A stretch of DNA of 20,619 nucleotides from Gallionellales bacterium CG03_land_8_20_14_0_80_55_15 (GTDB taxonomy: Bacteria > Pseudomonadota > Gammaproteobacteria > Burkholderiales > Gallionellaceae): positions 1-20,619 of the forward strand of contig PEUR01000126.1 of the NCBI GenBank assembly GCA_002780675.1. The letters run 5' to 3'. A program made the translations under genes and the position numbers. Positions 4,792 to 20,619 of this stretch are shown here, piece by piece. The stretch's first letter is position 1. The number at the start of each line of letters is the position of its first letter. The notes below the pieces were generated by a model. That model did not search any database. It saw nothing but the letters and a program-made list of their open reading frames with translations, and was not told the origin of the DNA.

Positions 4792-6006
4792 CTAAGCCGA
4801 TGCAGCCAAAACAAAAATTCCCGCAACGCCGCAAGCCGCCAGCGCGGACTCAACCCAGCCAAAACCGATTCTTTCCTGCTCAAGACGCAGATTGCTGCGT
4901 ATCCGGTTATCGCGCAGGTCGTTGTACAGCGCCGCCTCAACGGGGTTAAGTCTGGGCAGGTCGCGCAGTGTCTGTTTATCTTCTTCGCCCCACAGCGATT
5001 GAAAAGCCAGCAGCGTGGCGCGATCCATCAGCAACGATTCCACCTGCGCAAACCGGCTGCGCAGTTGGTCGAGGATAGCGAAACCGTGGGTGTCAATGTC
5101 GCCCCAATAATAGATGCGGCAGCGCGCCAGCCATGCCGCCTTGTCTAACACCTCGAAGCCATAGCCCGCGCCGAAGATAACCAGACTGTCTTCGAGCGGC
5201 GGGAATGCCAGAAAATTGACCTCATTCTCGGTGATAAAAACCCGCGTCACAGCGGGATCGAGCCCGGCGAAACTCGCCGCATCCAGGGTGATGTCCTGCA
5301 TCGTGTGACCGCGCAACAGGGCATGAGCCGGGTCGAGCACGCGCAAGCGGATACGCAGCGGCTTGTCACAAAATCCGTAGCGCCGGGCAAACTGGCTCAC
5401 GCCGGTGGCCGACGCATCTATTGCCTCCGGCGGCAAGGCGATGTCGAGCAATTCGCTAAGCACACCGCGATGCGCCTCGATGAATTTGCTGTGTACGCCC
5501 GGAATATCCACCTGTCTGAGATAGAGGCCGGGGCGGGGATGCTGCTGAAGCCAGGTGACGATTTCCAGCAGTTCGCGCCACTGTTCGCCAAGTTCCAGCG
5601 CCCGCAGGGGTCGTTTAGCCAGCCAGTCCAGCAAGGAAGGCTGGGATAGCCGGGTGGCCGCGATCAACGCCTGAAAGCGGATCACCTCGCGCCGTTTGCC
5701 GAGCAGCGCCCATGCCGCATCATTGCTGTCTATCCAGACTTCCTCCGGCACGGTATTGCTGCCGAAAATCCGGTGTTTGAACTCGCGCATCGCCACCCGG
5801 CAATGCGGCATCGCCCCAAGCTCGACTATCCAGCCGCGCACTTCGTCAAACTGCCCGGCCATCTCCGCCGAGGTCGGACACTTGAGCGTCAAACGCATCG
5901 GAAACAACGGCTCACCTGTAACCAGACTGACCAGCAACTCCCCGCGATCCCAACGCTTTTGCAGTTGGGCGCGCAAGTCAGCCGGGCGGGTCCAGCGCCC
6001 GCTCAT
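4792..6006 (-). CDS. jetD: Wadjet anti-plasmid system protein JetD (Toprim nuclease)
   Basis: Nuclease subunit of the Wadjet system (DUF3322 N-terminal part plus DUF2220 C-terminal part). It acts with the JetABC SMC complex to cleave small circular DNA such as plasmids. The 404-residue protein carries Toprim-type catalytic features: an acidic ENE cluster at about residues 260-262 (in [13 protein letters not shown]) and a DxD at 303/305 (in [11 protein letters not shown]). The family's conserved LEQERI lies near the C-terminus. Its ATG overlaps the jetC stop by four bases (ATGA), so it is coupled to jetC and closes the operon. After LEQERI the protein ends in a short hydrophobic Ala/Val-rich tail, which may be a lineage-specific extension. 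The next gene downstream is surE, 132 bases away. Confidence 0.9.
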
Positions 6007-9000
6007 CCATTCACCCGTGCTTTTTCGGCCTGATACTCCTCAATCGTCAGGTTGCGCAACAGGGACGCTTTGCCCGCCTCGTTCTGCACAAATCCCACGC
6101 TGGACACAAAAGGCTCGATGATGTGGATTTTCTGCAAGGGGGTCACAATCAACAGTTGCAGGTTCAATTGAGCAAACAACCTCAGTCCGTATTGCGCCGA
6201 ATCGTCAGAGCCGCGCCCGAAAGCCTCGTCTATCACCACAAAACGGAACGAGCGCGAACGCACCGCACCCCATTCCAGGCCAAACTGGTAGGCCAGGCTC
6301 GCCGCCAGAATGGTGTAGGCCAGCTTCTCCTTTTGCCCGCCCGACTTGCCGCCCGAATCGGAATAATGCTCGTATTCGCTGTCGTCCTCGCGCCAACGCT
6401 CGCTCGCGCCAAACACGAACCAGTTGCGCACATCGGTAACCTTGGCAGACCAGCGCCGATCCAGTTCGGACTGACCTTCCCGCCCGCGAAAACGCTCGAT
6501 GATATGTTGCACCTGCATAAACTTGGCTTCCGAATATTGCGCATCCCCGGAGCCGGTCATCGTGCCTTCGGTACAGGCGCGCATCTCGCCTTGAAAATCG
6601 CGGATGTCCGCGTCCGTTGTCGGCTGCGCTTCCAGCAAAATATAGCGCCCCGTGTTGTAGTCTATCCCGGCCAACGACTCGTTGATGCGTGCGATGCGCT
6701 CCTTGATCGTCTCCCGCCACATCGCCAGCTGCGAACTAAAATTCGCCACCTCGCGGATGGTATTTTCGTTCAGCAATTCCTTGAAACGCGCCTCGAAACG
6801 CGGCAGATCGTCGGCTTGCAGGTGATCCAGCATATTGCGGTATTCAAAAGCGGCGGCGATGCTGGCATCCACCTCGGCGGTTTCCAGCTTGAAGGCCTCT
6901 TTGTAAGAAGTCATCGCCTTGACGATACGCTCCCCCAGACTGACGAGTTTCCGGCCTTCATTATCCATCTGCTTTTGCAGCCACTCGCGCATCAGATGCT
7001 CGCGGTTGTCGCACGACTCGACCGAAAGCAGGTGTTCGCCCAGGGCTGCATCGCGCAGGGTAGCCAGGCGCTCGTAATTGGCATCATGAGCAGTAGTCCC
7101 CGTTTCATCCAGCACCCCCTGCGTTTGCGTGCGCAAAGCCACCGCATCGGTCTTTTTCTGCTCGGTCTTGGAGCGGTTATCCTTGTGCGCTTCCCACTGG
7201 GTTTCCGTGGCTTGCAAGGTCTCTACCACCTCGGCCAGACGCTGGGTCAGTTGCTTCAACACGTCGGAGGCGGACTCCAGCCGTTGCCGCTCTTCAGTCA
7301 AGCGGGCGATCTCCACAGTCGGCGACTGCCAGTCGAGTTCGCAAAAATCGGTGTATTCGTCCAGTTGCGACAGCGCGGTGAGGCGCTCCTTGAGCGCCTT
7401 TTGTGTGCCTTGTATCTTGCCGATCACACTGCCCAACTCGCCCAACTGACTTTCCAGCTGGCGCTTATTAGCTTCCAGCGCGGCGATCTTCTCGGCATTG
7501 GTCCAGCCCAGCACATAGCGGCTGCGGTCATCCAGCCGGTGGCGGTCGTCTTTCTCGTGCTTCTCGCCCGCCGCCTTGATCTGCCCCGCCCGCGTGATGG
7601 CGCGCGTCTCGCGGCGAAACTGCTCTTGCGTGGCGCAGCAGGCCACATCGAAACGGTGTGCCAGCTCACGCTCCAACCAATCGTAACAAGGCGAATCCGG
7701 CTTGATCGCCAGCTTCTGCGCCAGCGAATCCCGATGCAGGTTGGGCAGCTCGCCCCGCGCGCCAGGCCGTATCCTGAAATATACCAGACGCCCCCTGAGA
7801 TTGGTCTTGTCCACCCAATCCGCCACGCGGGTGTAATGCTCGTCCGGCACCAGCAACGACAGGCCGAAGTTGCGCAACAGCCGTTCGGCAGCCCCTTCCC
7901 AGTCGCGCTCGTCGTCGCGCACTTGCAGCAGTTCACCAACAAAAGGCATGTCCGCTGCGCACAAATCCAGCGCCTTGCAGAGCATGCCGCGCATCGCTAC
8001 CTGCTCTGAAGGTATGTTGCTAAGACGCGCTTTCAAACTATTGATTTCGCTGGATAATTCGTCGTGTTCCTGTCTCCCCTGCCGTAGCTGTACAGTGTGT
8101 TCAGTCAAGTTGTTTTGCAGGCTGGCCTCCTGCTCCCGCGCCGCTTCGGCGAGCATTGCAAAGCGTAGCCGTTGCCCGATAAAACCCGGCTCATCGCTGG
8201 CAGGACTTTCACCCGCCGCGCACACCAAGTCGGCGTAGCGTTCCGCCTTGCGTTGGCGTTGTTGGCGCAACTGTTCCTGCCTGCGTATTTCGCCGGCCAG
8301 GTGCTCCAGGCGGTCGCCGCCGTTGTCGGCGATGTTGCGTTTAAGTTCGGCTTCCTCAAGACGCTGGGCATCGCGGCGCACTGCCAGTCGCTGCACCTGG
8401 TTATCCTGACGCGCCCATTCATCGCCAAGACTGGCCACGCGTTTATCCAGCAATTCAATTTTCAGCCCGGCAAAATAGGGCCTGAGCGCTTCGCGGCAGC
8501 CGCGCAATTCCTCGACTTGCGCGCCCAGCACTGCGTGGCGCGCGCAATCTGCCACCAGCGGCACGAGCAATTCGACTTGGCGCTTGGCCTTGCACACCGC
8601 CTCGTGCGCGCGGCTCAAGTCGTCGAAATGCTCGATTAAAGCCGTAATACGGGGTGCGACCTCAAACGGCTCCAGCATGTGGCTGCGCACAAAATCCGTC
8701 AGGTTGCCCACCGATTTCATCGAGACGGTTTGATGAAACAGCTCAAGCGCCTGCTCGTTTTCGATGCCGAAGCGCCGCCTGAACCACGCGCAATAAGGCG
8801 GAAAACTGTCGAATACCTCAATCCCCTGGCCGCGCAACCGCTTGCGCAGCTGAGCAATCTCCGTACCAAAATTGGCAAAATCGGTGGCAATGGACAAGTC
8901 ACGCTCAGCGCCTATAAACATGCGTGCGGGTTGTCCCTGCGCGTCCTTCATCCAGAAAACTTGCGCTAACGTCACGGTCTGGTCATAACCCGCGTTGTGA

Positions 9001-9380
9001 AACACGCCGAGGATCACCGAATAATTGTTCTGGTCGCGCAACGCCACGGGTTTGGCCGTTCCGCTCAACTCATTGCGCTCGGATTTGTAATGCCCCAGCA
9101 CATAGGAACGCAGCGTGCGTTCCTTGTTGTCAGCACCTGCCGCCTTGTTGTAGGCGATACGGTTGGCCGGCACCAGCAAGGTCGTGACCGCATCCACCAG
9201 CGTGGACTTGCCCGACCCGATGTCGCCGGTCAGCAGGGCATTTTTGCCGTTGGGCTTCAACACCCACACGCGCGCATCGAAAGTTCCCCAGTTATAAACT
9301 TCCAGTCTATGCAGGCGAAAGCCCGAGAGCGCATCGTCCGTTGCAAAATCCAGCCCCAAAGTTTGCGGCTCACTCATCAT
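6003..9380 (-). CDS. jetC: Wadjet anti-plasmid system ATPase JetC (SMC/MukB-like)
   Basis: Large SMC-like ATPase that drives DNA loop extrusion in the Wadjet complex; related to MksB/MukB. From the start at 9380 it is 1125 residues. The Walker A motif GDIGSGKST is at about residues 52-60. A long middle section rich in Glu, Gln, Arg and Lys has the look of antiparallel coiled coil around a hinge. The ABC signature SGGQ is at about 1013-1016. Walker B is FVVIDEAF, with the catalytic glutamate near 1052. I start at the tandem ATGs at 9380/9377 because GGAAGG lies just upstream. The open frame extends further to 9434, deep inside jetB, which I consider spurious. The start overlaps the jetB end by about 11 bases. 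All nucleotide-binding motifs are intact. Confidence 0.92.
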
Positions 9381-10029
9381 TTTCACCTTCCGAACCACCG
9401 GCAAGCTGCGCCTGATACGCCGCCAGCCGCACATCGAAATCGGACAACCATTGCGCGTTGACGAAGGCTTTTAAAATACGCCTCACCTCAAAGGCTTGCG
9501 CGCTGCCCTGTGTTCCGCCTTGGCCTCCACCTTGTCCTGCATTGGGCTTGAGTCTGCGCAAAAATCCCAATTCCACGACCTTGTTGAGATGGGATTCGAT
9601 TTGATCTATCAACCTGGCCTCATTGCTGCCTTCCGGCAAAAACACCCGAATCAGTTCGACCATCTGGTCACGTGTCAGCACCAGGCGCGTGTCGCCGCCG
9701 CCCGCGTCAAACTCGGCCAGTTTTTTGCGCAACAAGGCCAGCAACAGACTAACCGGAAATGAGAGCGGACGACGTGCAATCAAACGCGGCAGCTTCTGTG
9801 TCGCCTCTTCATCGCTGGCCTGACGCGAGCGTAAAAAAGCATAACCCTCGGCCTCGTCCAGCTCCAACTCCAGCCCCAGCACCGCCACATAGTCGCGCAC
9901 CCGCACTTGCAAGTTGAGCAGCGCGTTCCATAGTCCGGCATCCGCCTCTTGGTACAGCACGCCTTTCAACAGCGGGATGACCAGGGAAGACAGGTCATGC
10001 GTTGCGGTAACATTTTCCAATTCCGACAT
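9370..10029 (-). CDS. jetB: Wadjet anti-plasmid system protein JetB (DUF4194, kite subunit)
   Basis: Kite-type (MksE/MukE-like) subunit that binds the kleisin JetA in the Wadjet loop-extrusion complex; DUF4194 family. From the ATG at 10029 it has 219 residues, a typical size. That ATG is preceded at good spacing by GAGG and lies two bases after the jetA stop. A longer in-frame reading starting at 10101 would run into jetA and lacks such support. The body is mostly helical with paired winged-helix character expected for the family (inferred, not demonstrated). A Gly/Gln-rich stretch of about 15 residues (roughly 164-178) separates the last helical segment from the rest and looks like a flexible linker. 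It is soluble, with no signal peptide. Confidence 0.88.
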
Positions 10030-10031
10030 CT

Positions 10032-11516
10032 TTACCTCACAAAAATCACGCGCGGCAAACGCGCCTGCTTGACCTGCTCTGCCCCATCCGCCGTGACACA
10101 CTGCCCCGAGCTAACTTGCCCCGAGCTAACGCGCCACACGATAACGTCGGTCACCGCTTCATCCACCACGCTCTTAAAACTATCGCTGGCAAGCTGCAAA
10201 TACGCCACCAATTCTGCCAGACCGTGCTGCAAGGGTTGCCTCTCGCACAACTCGGCCAGGGTGATTTGAGACTTATCCTGCAAGGCGTGGCGTATGTGCC
10301 GCGTCAGCTGCGCGCGATCTACCACCACCTGCGAATAAAGCGCACCCGCATCCATCTCAACCTCGCCAGACAGCAGCGCACTGTCCGAAATCACGGGCTT
10401 GACGGTGGGGATGTAGAGCGGGCGCTCCATAGTCAACTCGATGTCGGCTGCCGTATCCGCCATGTCCATCACGACACCTGCGTGCGGCAAGTCGCGCACC
10501 GCCAGCGCACGCGCTTCGATGTTGTGCAGAATTTCCATGATACGGCGATTTTCCAGCCAGGCCTGATCGTCCAGAAAGCGCCGCAACTGTTGAGAAAGCT
10601 GCGCCACGGTGCGCTGTGTGTGTTCACCCGCCGCAAGCCAGTCGTAATGCACGCGACGGGTGCGCGCATCGGGCTTGAGTTCGGCAACCGAGGGCAGGCT
10701 CAAGACGTGATCGAGCAATACCGACAATTCTTCCTGGCGGCTGCCGGACATCAAAAAATCCCAAAAGGCACGGAAACTCCTGCCCTGATCGGAATCGGAA
10801 ATCGCGTCGCGCTCGCCCATGATTTCTTCCAGCAGCGCCCCCTTGGAACCCTCCCACAAGGCAATGCGTTCACGCACGCGCCGATCCAGCCCGCGAAAAT
10901 TGTGTTCCACCTCGCGGAAGTCGGTGAGCAATTCACGCGCGAGCTGCATGAACTGCTGAAAACGGTCTTTCAGCGCCGTATCGTCCAGCATAGGAAGATC
11001 GCCACTGACTACGCGGGCAATCTCGGCATCAATCTGGTCGCGCCGCTTGTGCAACTCGGCGATGCGCGCCTCGGGGTCGGTCTCGCTGCCCTCGCTCATC
11101 TGCTTGAGCAAATCGAACAGCGTTAACAAACGCGACTCGGTGCCGACAAAACTGCGTTCGGTCAACGTCGCAAGCCAAGCTATCGCCTTCTCGGTGGCGG
11201 GCATCAAGTCAAAATGCGGTTCGTCCGAGCCCGGCGCGTAATACTTGCGCAGCCAACCCTTGTCGGTAGCCGCCCAATCATTGAGATAGTCGAGCGCAGG
11301 CTTGGGGAATGCCTCCGCACCCAGGCGTTCGCGCACACAAAAAAGCTCGTCTTCCAGCGCCTCGGCCAAATCCGCCTGCGCCATCACGCGCACATTGGGT
11401 ACGATAAACACACGCCGCAAAAAACCGGCCAGCAGCGGCGCATGATCCGAACGCAACAAACGCCAGGCCGGATGGCTCTGGCGCAACAGGTCAAGGGTAA
11501 AGTAATCCAGACTCAA
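10032..11516 (-). CDS. jetA: Wadjet anti-plasmid system protein JetA (DUF3375, kleisin)
   Basis: Kleisin-like (MksF/MukF-related) subunit bridging the JetC ATPase heads; DUF3375 family. The 494-residue protein opens MSLDYFTLDLLRQSHPAWRL, which closely fits the family start. The start codon is TTG (11516-11514). It is supported by a strong GGAGGTG located six bases upstream, and no usable ATG is near. Order and spacing jetA-(2 bp)-jetB-(overlap)-jetC-(ATGA overlap)-jetD indicate one transcript beginning here. A tandem 15-base duplication in the C-terminal coding part gives a repeated SSGQ. The promoter is not obvious: the 36 bases between the start and the inverted-repeat element hold only the ribosome binding site region, so transcription may begin inside or beyond that element. 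Confidence 0.9.
   Translation of the reverse strand: MSLDYFTLDLLRQSHPAWRLLRSDHAPLLAGFLRRVFIVPNVRVMAQADLAEALEDELFCVRERLGAEAFPKPALDYLNDWAATDKGWLRKYYAPGSDEPHFDLMPATEKAIAWLATLTERSFVGTESRLLTLFDLLKQMSEGSETDPEARIAELHKRRDQIDAEIARVVSGDLPMLDDTALKDRFQQFMQLARELLTDFREVEHNFRGLDRRVRERIALWEGSKGALLEEIMGERDAISDSDQGRSFRAFWDFLMSGSRQEELSVLLDHVLSLPSVAELKPDARTRRVHYDWLAAGEHTQRTVAQLSQQLRRFLDDQAWLENRRIMEILHNIEARALAVRDLPHAGVVMDMADTAADIELTMERPLYIPTVKPVISDSALLSGEVEMDAGALYSQVVVDRAQLTRHIRHALQDKSQITLAELCERQPLQHGLAELVAYLQLASDSFKSVVDEAVTDVIVWRVSSGQVSSGQCVTADGAEQVKQARLPRVIFVR
10102..10130. repeat. 15-bp tandem duplication inside jetA
   Basis: The 14-base string TGCCCCGAGCTAAC occurs at 10102-10115 and again at 10117-10130, a period of 15 bases. 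In the jetA reading frame this produces a duplicated SSGQ near the C-terminus without a frame change. It looks like a recent slippage or unequal-recombination event. Confidence 0.85.
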
Positions 11517-11552
11517 GTGCTACACCTCCATCAATACTGCGCAAGGGAGAGA

Positions 11553-11786
11553 CTGATTTATTCGATTTTGTCGTTTTCGCAAAAGCGAAAACCCTTTTTA
11601 ATCAAGCACTAGGTTCCGACCCCCGTATCGCGGTACGGGGCAGGTTTCGCCGAGAAACCGGCGACTTGCCAGTGCTTGTACCCTTCAGGGTGTGCTGGCT
11701 AAGTCGAATGGCCATCCATGATGGCTTGAGCCTTAGCCAGAACTGAGTTGTTTTATCAGTTGTTCCAACAATGACGAATAAATCAG
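11553..11786. other. Highly structured 234-bp element with 12-bp terminal inverted repeats
   Basis: It occupies most of the 347-base gap between jetA and tRNA-Pro. Perfect terminal inverted repeats CTGATTTATTCG (11553-11564) and CGAATAAATCAG (11775-11786) enclose a tiled series of helices. These are 11573-11580/11585-11592; 11603-11610/11671-11678, which encloses 11621-11627/11634-11640 and 11643-11648/11654-11659; 11680-11683/11688-11691; 11695-11703/11732-11740, which encloses 11711-11716/11720-11725; and 11741-11746/11756-11761. A further TTGT/ACAA pairing (11568-11571/11768-11771) extends the closing stem. Most stems are perfect, so strand cannot be inferred. It could be a non-coding RNA, a MITE-like palindromic mobile element, or a leader for jetABCD. 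No target-site duplication is visible at its ends. I recognise no named RNA family. Confidence 0.75.
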
Positions 11787-11817
11787 CGTTTCCCAAGTTT
11801 CACGTTAACCTCACATC

Positions 11818-11850
11818 AAAACAAAAAGGCCGGCATATTTGCCAGCCTTT
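11818..11850 (-). terminator. Intrinsic terminator after tRNA-Pro
   Basis: Read on the minus strand, AAGGCTGGC (11849-11841) pairs with GCCGGCCTT (11834-11826) around a six-base AT loop, with one G-T wobble. It is followed by a T-rich tract TTTGTTTT. It lies 14 bases past the tRNA 3' end and should separate the tRNA transcript from the structured element and jetA. Confidence 0.85.
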
Positions 11851-11863
11851 GCTGTTTGTATCC

Positions 11864-11940
<77 letters not shown>

Positions 11941-11949
11941 AGGGCGCGG

Positions 11950-11977
11950 ATTATAACAGAGCAATCCACGCGGTAAA
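11950..11977 (-). promoter_or_regulatory. Extended -10 promoter of tRNA-Pro
   Basis: On the minus strand there is a perfect -10 box TATAAT (11955-11950) with an upstream TGT making an extended -10. A -35-like TTTACC (11977-11972) lies 16 bases upstream. A GC-rich discriminator leads into the tRNA only nine bases later. The site lies wholly in the gap after the merR-type gene. Confidence 0.75.
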
Positions 11978-19582: not shown

Positions 19583-20619
19583 ATGTCAGCCCCTTCATTC
19601 GTATTGCATATTGAACCCGATGCTACTTGCGCCCCCGAAGTGGTTGCACAACTCTCGCCCAAATTAGCCACTTTGGTACACCGTTACATCAGCGATGCCG
19701 ACTCACTGAACGCCGCCCTGAATGAGCGCGAGTGGAGCGCGATTCTGTATGGCAGGAATGAACTGGACGATACCGGCACGCCTCATTCTTTCCTGGACAG
19801 CATGCCCGGCATGGCCTGCCAGCTTTATCTGGACAAGGATGGCGCGTTGAACTTTCTATATGTCAGCGAAGGCTGCATGGACTTGCTCGGTGTCACGTCG
19901 CCCGAACTGGAGCAACACCCGCAATTATTGCTGGACAGACTCCATCCTGACGATAGGGAAACTTTCTACCGGAGTATGCGCCAGTCGTCCAGCCAGGCGA
20001 CCCCTTGGAATTGGGAGGGACGCATCGTTCTAAAAGCCAGTCGGCCTACCCTCTCCCCTCCCCTGGTGGAACAACCCGCCATGCGACCAGGACATCAAGA
20101 AACGCAGCCCCTGTCGCCGTCTAGCTCCCGCTTTGCGGGTGAGAGAGAAAACGGCTCGCTGCGTGAGCCGCAGGTTGACGAAATAAAGTGGCTGAATTTG
20201 CGCGCCAAACATCCCGTCAGCAATATACAAGGCACGGTCTGGAATGGCTTCATGGTCAACATCACGCAAAACAAACAAACCGCTATCGAAATCAAACGGT
20301 CGCGGCAAAGGCTGAGAGAGTTGTCTTCTCATATCGAGAGCATCAAGGAAGAGGAACGGATGCGCATCGCACGGGAAATCCACGATGACATAGGTGTCCT
20401 GTTGACCGCCTTAAAGATGGATCTGGCATGGCTCAGCCAGCGCCTGCCCAAAGACAATGCCGCACTTCATGAAAAAACACTGGACATGGCTAACTTGCTG
20501 GATACGGCGGGCAAGTCTGCCAACAATCTGGTGCATAGCCTGCGCCCCGGCTTTCTCGACTGTTTCGGTATCGTTGCAGCGATCGAAATCGAAGCTCGGG
20601 AATTTACCAAACGCACCGG
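19583..20619 (+). CDS. PAS-domain sensor histidine kinase (HisKA_3, NarX-like), 3' end outside window
   Basis: The frame stays open from the ATG at 19583 to the window end (345 codons), so the kinase ATPase domain is missing only because of the edge. An in-frame TAG at 19574 makes this the first possible start. Residues 1-69 resemble a degenerate receiver-like region. A PAS fold spans about 70-225 (from FLDSMPGMACQ to NGFMVNITQNK). A helical linker follows, then a HisKA_3 dimerisation domain with H-box REIHDDIG (phospho-acceptor His267). No membrane segment or signal peptide is seen, so a cytoplasmic sensor is expected. Its response regulator should lie downstream. Residues 154-198 form an insert in the PAS domain, described separately. 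The stimulus is unknown. Confidence 0.88.
   Translation, partial: MSAPSFVLHIEPDATCAPEVVAQLSPKLATLVHRYISDADSLNAALNEREWSAILYGRNELDDTGTPHSFLDSMPGMACQLYLDKDGALNFLYVSEGCMDLLGVTSPELEQHPQLLLDRLHPDDRETFYRSMRQSSSQATPWNWEGRIVLKASRPTLSPPLVEQPAMRPGHQETQPLSPSSSRFAGERENGSLREPQVDEIKWLNLRAKHPVSNIQGTVWNGFMVNITQNKQTAIEIKRSRQRLRELSSHIESIKEEERMRIAREIHDDIGVLLTALKMDLAWLSQRLPKDNAALHEKTLDMANLLDTAGKSANNLVHSLRPGFLDCFGIVAAIEIEAREFTKRT
20042..20176 (+). repeat. In-frame hairpin-rich insertion within the PAS domain
   Basis: About 135 bases (45 codons) interrupt the PAS domain between RIVLKAS and DEIKWLNL, where most PAS_3-type domains have a tight turn. The encoded segment is rich in Pro, Ser, Arg and Glu. The DNA contains CCCGC-TTT-GCGGG (20127-20139) and an 8-bp hairpin CGGCTCGC/GTGAGCCG (20152-20159/20163-20170). 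It begins with a CCCTCTCCCCTCCCC-like tract near 20049-20063. This resembles degenerate CCCTCTCCC-type palindromic dispersed repeats. The boundaries are estimated from the PAS alignment by eye. Confidence 0.6.

Follow-up and report, generated by a model that had tools for sequence, protein, structure and literature searches.

The intergenic element upstream of jetA in the window (the whole stretch of 20,619 nucleotides that was analysed, contig PEUR01000126.1 of a Gallionellales bacterium) is very probably a MITE with IS5-type ends and an inverted pair of REP hairpins, enlarged by nested copies of a second hairpin, here called M. We take positions 11546-11793 to be a non-autonomous transposon with ends of the IS5 group, whose basic unit, 95 bp long, consists of two CGTC-1-like REP hairpins that lie between these ends in inverted orientation. 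It was probably moved by an IS5-family transposase that acted on the ends and duplicated a 4-bp target, and the window copy is enlarged by hairpins inserted in its hairpin B, above all by M, a REP-like and putatively mobile element that in the window itself seems to carry a nested M-like unit. The type of element is known; what is new is the nesting, the placement of a REP dimer within a MITE, and M itself.

Structure of the element

The element is 248 bp long, with 19-bp ends flanked by identical 4-bp CAAG sequences. An earlier note on this DNA had placed its boundaries at 11553-11786, where a 12-bp perfect inverted repeat (11553-11564 and 11775-11786) closes a set of hairpins. The repeat is present, and with a repeat tool it reaches 27 nt at 78%, but the true ends had been missed, and the ends common to the copies reach seven bases beyond the 12-base core, to GG...CC. 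The hairpins described in that note are essentially those of the predicted fold. The parts of the element are given below, with + and - for the forward and reverse strands and with loci designated by L and a number.

11542-11545, no strand: left target-site duplication CAAG, identical to 11794-11797, at the same offset as in 77 of 119 elements.
11546-11564, +: left terminal inverted repeat GGAGAGACTGATTTATTCG, matching the right end at 16 of 19 positions; 53 of 76 genus genomes share its core.
11569-11592, +: hairpin A, REP-like, with tag TGTC, 8-bp stem, 4-nt loop and a tail CCT, not CCA; read from the sequence and from compensatory changes across 19 family copies.
11613-11652, +: hairpin B, with its 5' arm at 11613-11618 and a remnant 3' arm at 11649-11652.
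11621-11640, +: GC-rich hairpin inside B, common to some other host copies (compared with L002, L004 and L044).
11653-11769, +: insertion M, a diverged long form, followed by AA; aligned by eye to the long copies L254, L255 and L060, with 80% BLAST identity to L082 over 11656-11770 and a weak score of 19.4 bits for 11654-11716 with the M model (R1).
11680-11691, +: small hairpin ACCCTTCAGGGT in the loop of M, found in long M copies and missing from short ones.
11714-11757, +: M-like unit nested in M at TGGC(T)^AGTTGTT and followed by AG, at the same nested place as in other copies; 17.9 bits with R1 for 11718-11757.
11770-11776, -: end of hairpin B and tag CGTCATT, overlapping the first bases of the right end; placed by the family alignment.
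11775-11793, -: right terminal inverted repeat GGAAACGCTGATTTATTCG, near-identical to the ends of the IS5-family elements L128 and L126.
11794-11797, no strand: right target-site duplication CAAG, identical to the left one.

Insertions in hairpin B account for the length of the window copy beyond 95 bp. Its M copy is diverged and both scores are low, an unrelated-looking stretch at 20065 reaching 19.7 bits, so that the assignment to M rests on similarity to intact long copies.

Copies and target-site duplications

The earlier note had proposed a search for copies as a way to recognise a mobile element. In the host genome (1.61 Mb, 222 contigs, 81% complete), a 271-base query gave 39 matches, window included, on many contigs; copies with the same termini occur here and in relatives, which points to a mobile element. 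Two-core elements, defined by 12-base cores with at most 2 mismatches, were found in 14 of 28 sources (27 host loci, of which two overlap, plus the window), the other sources being partial, decayed or at contig ends. In 282 locus records and the window, there were 119 distinct two-core elements, including a few evident chance core pairs. An exact 4-bp duplication at the offset of the GG end was present in 77 of the 119, compared to a mean of 18.0 with shuffled flanks, and none was seen at offsets 3-6 and 8. The duplicated sequence was TTAG, CTAA, CTAG or TTAA in 70 of the 77, that is YTAR, the target motif reported for IS5 in the available part of PMC10359306. A duplication differing at one base was found in 25 further elements. 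The CAAG of the window is an exact 4-bp duplication and is not YTAR.

Relatives of the element abound in the host and in allied bacteria of the iron-oxidiser type, and their distribution centres on the genus of the host. At least 14 of 61 relatives' genomes, all of the same genus, match 254 bases of the window among the best 12 candidates per genome, and 53 of 76 genus genomes contain the exact core (402 occurrences, up to 57 per genome, vs 6 for the reversed pattern). An exact 23-base MITE pattern was present in 107 stretches of genome_contigs; among the 80 of these that were listed, 59 were assigned to Gallionella, Gallionellales/-aceae, Sideroxydans or Nitrosomonadales, 17 to 'Proteobacteria bacterium', 2 to Thiobacillus and 2 to Methylophilales/-aceae. 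Searches of plasmids with the element and of viral contigs with the exact MITE pattern gave no match, and nothing on MITEs in Gallionella was found in the open-licence literature.

Ends common with IS5-family transposons

Transposases with PF01609 matches were found in 32 of 61 sampled genus genomes, and none was found in the host genome, which is 81% complete. We inspected 60 transposase loci, in two sets of 30 that cover partly the same places. In two genus genomes, a transposase gene lies between MITE-like ends. The first element (L128/L087) has 1194 bp and CTAG on both sides, with GGAAACGCTGATTTATTC at one end and the other end diverged after GGAAACGCTGA; the second (L126/L102) has 1241 bp, CTAG/ATAG flanks and GGAAACGCAGATTTATTC at both ends. 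The transposases of L128 and L126 belong to the IS5 family (NCBIfam NF033581, 348 and 330 bits, cut-off 140). The remaining transposase loci had different ends, or none were found. From the ends and the duplications we infer that movement of the MITE by an IS5-family transposase is probable. A MITE-like palindromic mobile element was among the readings offered in the earlier note, and it is the one that the dispersed copies with common termini, the target duplications and the full-length genus transposons with matching ends bear out.

Inner hairpins

Exactly 95 bp was the length of 73 of the 119 elements, and 19 of these that differ mutually by more than 6 bases align without gaps. Read inward from the ends, both hairpins combine a tag (CGTC or TGTC) with an 8-bp stem, a loop of 4 nt and a tail that is mostly CCA, and the pair is oriented with the tags outside. 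In the part of PMC3733652 available, CGTC-1 REPs are described as having a CGTC/TGTC tag, an 8-bp stem starting with AT, a 4-nt loop and a CCA tail; the tags-outside arrangement is said there to predominate among them, and neisserial dRS3 repeats are included. The MITE hairpins are alike in tag, stem length, loop, mostly in the tail and in the outside tags, and hairpin B has all the CGTC-1 features. Unlike CGTC-1 REPs, hairpin A has a stem starting with GT instead of AT and host A tails that vary and are often another sequence, and the pair here lies between IS5-type ends with target duplications. IS5-type ends could be such a palindrome as the same source mentions for H. neapolitanus.

In the 19 aligned copies, 8 of 28 pairs show two-sided changes, all in the inner hairpins and in 36 such cells, compared to shuffled means of 4.8 pairs and 11.3 cells; none of 500 shuffles reaches the observed values. 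Further pair types were not above control (18 vs a shuffled 18.3; 380 of 500). The terminal helix of the MITE shows no two-sided change in these 19 copies. Covariation of the stems is a property of dispersed repeat families.

CGTC-1-like units adjoin the core in 62 cases and do not in 28 in the 107 MITE loci; in three other locus sets, 2 adjoin the core and 5 do not. Since the units also occur outside IS5-type ends, the MITE is one vehicle for them and not their only home. In seven loci (L005, L048, L162, L181, L188, L203 and L232), further small kinds of hairpin are inserted in the loops of the two REP-like hairpins of the MITE, as if these loops were insertion hot spots. Two very short forms of the MITE (L246, 60 bp, and L196, 58 bp) have one hairpin between the ends and possibly derive from recombination between the two inner hairpins.

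The hairpin element M

In its simple form, M is 54-60 nt long and consists of ATAA, a bulged stem and then TTTCATC. The alignment of M holds 31 of 35 distinct copies, and the covariance model was built from 17 long copies. The model matches 73 of 76 genus genomes, 24 of which have at least 60 matches among the best 72 candidates per genome. When the best 18 candidates per genome were considered in an order-wide sample, matches at E <= 1e-5 were present in at least 22 of 300 genomes and in at least 12 of 134 genera. A search of 100 of the 107 MITE loci gave 44 matches (37 distinct rows). Pairing is seen in 96.2% of their cells and two-sided change in 13 of 14 pairs, and none of 500 shuffles reaches any of five measures; the alignment was fitted to the model, and relatedness inflates such scores. 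M matched no Rfam family. Searches of plasmids and phages with one M copy and of viral contigs with the exact M pattern gave no match, and the open-licence literature held nothing that we found on repetitive extragenic palindromic sequences in Gallionella. In the loci examined, we found no 5' and 3' halves of M paired around a gene at a distance of 140-3000 bp; lone signatures numbered 27 for the 5' and 11 for the 3' half, most loci being only about 3 kb long. A further stretch of the window (20065-20124, - strand), inside or near a 117-aa ORF, scores 19.7 bits with the M model and is either a decayed copy or a chance match.

The junctions of M are precise. Among 97 copies with distinct flanks, the next base 3' of M is A in 94 (AG in 82, AA in 12) and an A stands just before M in 2. 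Interrupted M and MITE sites show one A to be part of the target. The joined flanks of M fold better (mean -18.1 kcal/mol) than mismatched flank pairs (mean -16.0; best of 20 shuffles -16.7; RNA parameters), and a direct stem spanning the junction exceeds that of controls by only a little (2.93 vs 2.52, with a maximum of 2.90 among 200 controls). Approximate pattern rules place 17 of the 97 copies within another M, at two recurrent positions, 1 immediately behind an M, 19 in the arms of CGTC-1-like or MITE hairpins and 25 in three other repeat types; 35 were left unassigned. In six loci (L343, L348, L353, L336, L347 and L352), M interrupts other dispersed palindromic repeats, including the type CCCCTTRTC^AGGGGAGG and the type TTCGACAGGCTCAGG.

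Possible mobility of M

M may be a REP moved by a Y1 enzyme (TnpA-REP or IS200-like) that cuts single strands at CT, a serious candidate explanation that we nevertheless place somewhat short of an even chance. In 82 of 97 copies, the AG that follows M reads CT on the opposite strand, and CT is where the TnpA-REP enzymes examined in the available part of PMC8266576 cut; M has a bulged hairpin, and 63 of 76 genus genomes have Y1 matches. However, 50 Y1 loci, a subset of those of the genus, gave one M match, and the 13 of 76 genomes with no Y1 match (E <= 0.001) have M matches, 1 to 78 each (72, 78, 37 and 29 in some of them). In addition, 12 of 97 copies have AA, that is TT, which one TnpA-REP enzyme does not cut according to the same part of PMC8266576. 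No GTAG tag is present at the 5' foot of the M hairpin: in the alignment, ATAA comes before the stem and a variable GTNG after it, on the wrong side. The narrower proposal that M is a RAYT-flanking REP was rejected on the one match in 50 Y1 loci, and a lax M search of 17 of these loci (L283-L299) gave none. Compared with the GTAG REPs and RAYT (TnpA-REP), M is alike in being a small bulged hairpin of high copy number with CT on the strand at the junction, and in inserting into palindromes, as reported for some REP families. It is unlike them in having no GTAG foot tag, in being longer (54-60 nt), in not lying near Y1 genes in the loci read and in nesting in itself at two recurrent places.

We consider it unlikely, though deserving of some weight, that M is moved by an enzyme of another kind that targets hairpins, such as an IS110-type recombinase or reverse transcription. 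M is often inserted in hairpin arms and in itself, and there is a parallel in the GC clusters of yeast mitochondria, short mobile hairpins whose mechanism is described as unsettled in the part of PMC4478555 available. They resemble M in merging with one another and in having AG at the site, according to the same source. Unlike M, they belong to organelle DNA and have AG/ACT direct repeats on both sides, whereas an A stands before M in only 2 of 97 copies.

Fold and position upstream of jetA

The window element lies between the tRNA-Pro terminator and jetA, the jetDCBA (Wadjet) operon occupying 4792-11516 on the reverse strand; the best PADLOC matches of the four operon proteins are JetA1, JetB1, JetC1 and JetD1. 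From the TTG start of jetA it is 29 bases upstream to the end of the MITE, which lies near the likely ribosome-binding site. The forward strand folds at -100.5 kcal/mol, compared to -61.9 +/- 4.9 for shuffles (z -7.9), and the reverse strand folds equally well (z -8.4); none of 200 shuffles was as stable in either case. Equal folding of both strands is what palindromic DNA, rather than a strand-specific RNA, would be expected to show. At gathering scores, Rfam gave two tRNAs only in the window; lax settings added sub-threshold matches at chance level, and the Rfam hits in ten loci that carry M or MITE copies were one tRNA and one sub-threshold match.

Besides that of the host, 14 jetA-matching loci were found in the genus. 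In 13 of these (L397 being left out), the MITE core is not found within 500 bp upstream of jetA; in one locus (L385), one core lies about 1 kb upstream of the jetA-matching gene. No tRNA was found in 11 of these loci, no sigma-70-like promoter at 11480-11960 and no empty site for the window insertion, the jet operons of relatives being located elsewhere. A conserved link between the MITE and Wadjet was not found; a local effect of this single insertion on jetA is possible.

A functional structured RNA kept for regulation, for example a leader or switch of the jet operon, would fit the very stable fold and the position directly upstream of jetA, but it is highly improbable given the equal fold of the reverse strand, host copies scattered beside unrelated sequence, the missing core within 500 bp upstream at the 13 other jetA loci and the lack of an Rfam match. 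Two suggestions of the earlier note are not supported: a new structured RNA as the primary identity, on the equal folds and the absence of any Rfam family over threshold, and a regulatory leader of the defence operon, on a placement that is not conserved among the 13 other loci and on the promoter search. The same note had seen a possible switch in a competing CGCCG/CGGCG pairing (11648-11652 and 11659-11663). The sequence is as described, but the pairing links what is left of a MITE hairpin arm with the initial bases of M and is no family feature; these bases are CCGGCGACT here, vs CCAGCGACT, CCAGCCACT or similar in most of the other M copies listed. The RNA switch was rejected on these grounds, and the pairing looks like an accident of nesting.

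Implications

The MITE reading agrees with IS5-group MITEs in the GG...CC ends common with full-length IS5-family elements of the genus, in the 4-bp, mostly YTAR duplications, in the short length and in that no gene of its own was found. Unlike these, the present element has an inverted pair of REP-like hairpins, further hairpin insertions and inner hairpins that covary. CGTC REPs are described in the available part of PMC3733652 as abundant and apparently without a dedicated transposase; inverted CGTC-1-like pairs in IS5-type ends with duplications are one concrete, testable vehicle for them. Nested insertions of this kind can yield a compact, highly structured intergenic region without a regulatory RNA.

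We put forward tentatively, as a doubtful but specific proposal, that M represents, as its type member, a class of hairpin transposons that nest in themselves, and that IS5-type MITEs are vehicles of CGTC REP dimers. If so, the class would recognise hairpins in the folded state and enter their arms immediately before AG, with a putative enzyme, and many Gallionella-type genomes would carry dozens of M copies or more. M is abundant and covarying, its junctions are precise and its self-insertions recur at two sites, and its many copies allow a sequence-based study of how small hairpins move in bacterial genomes.
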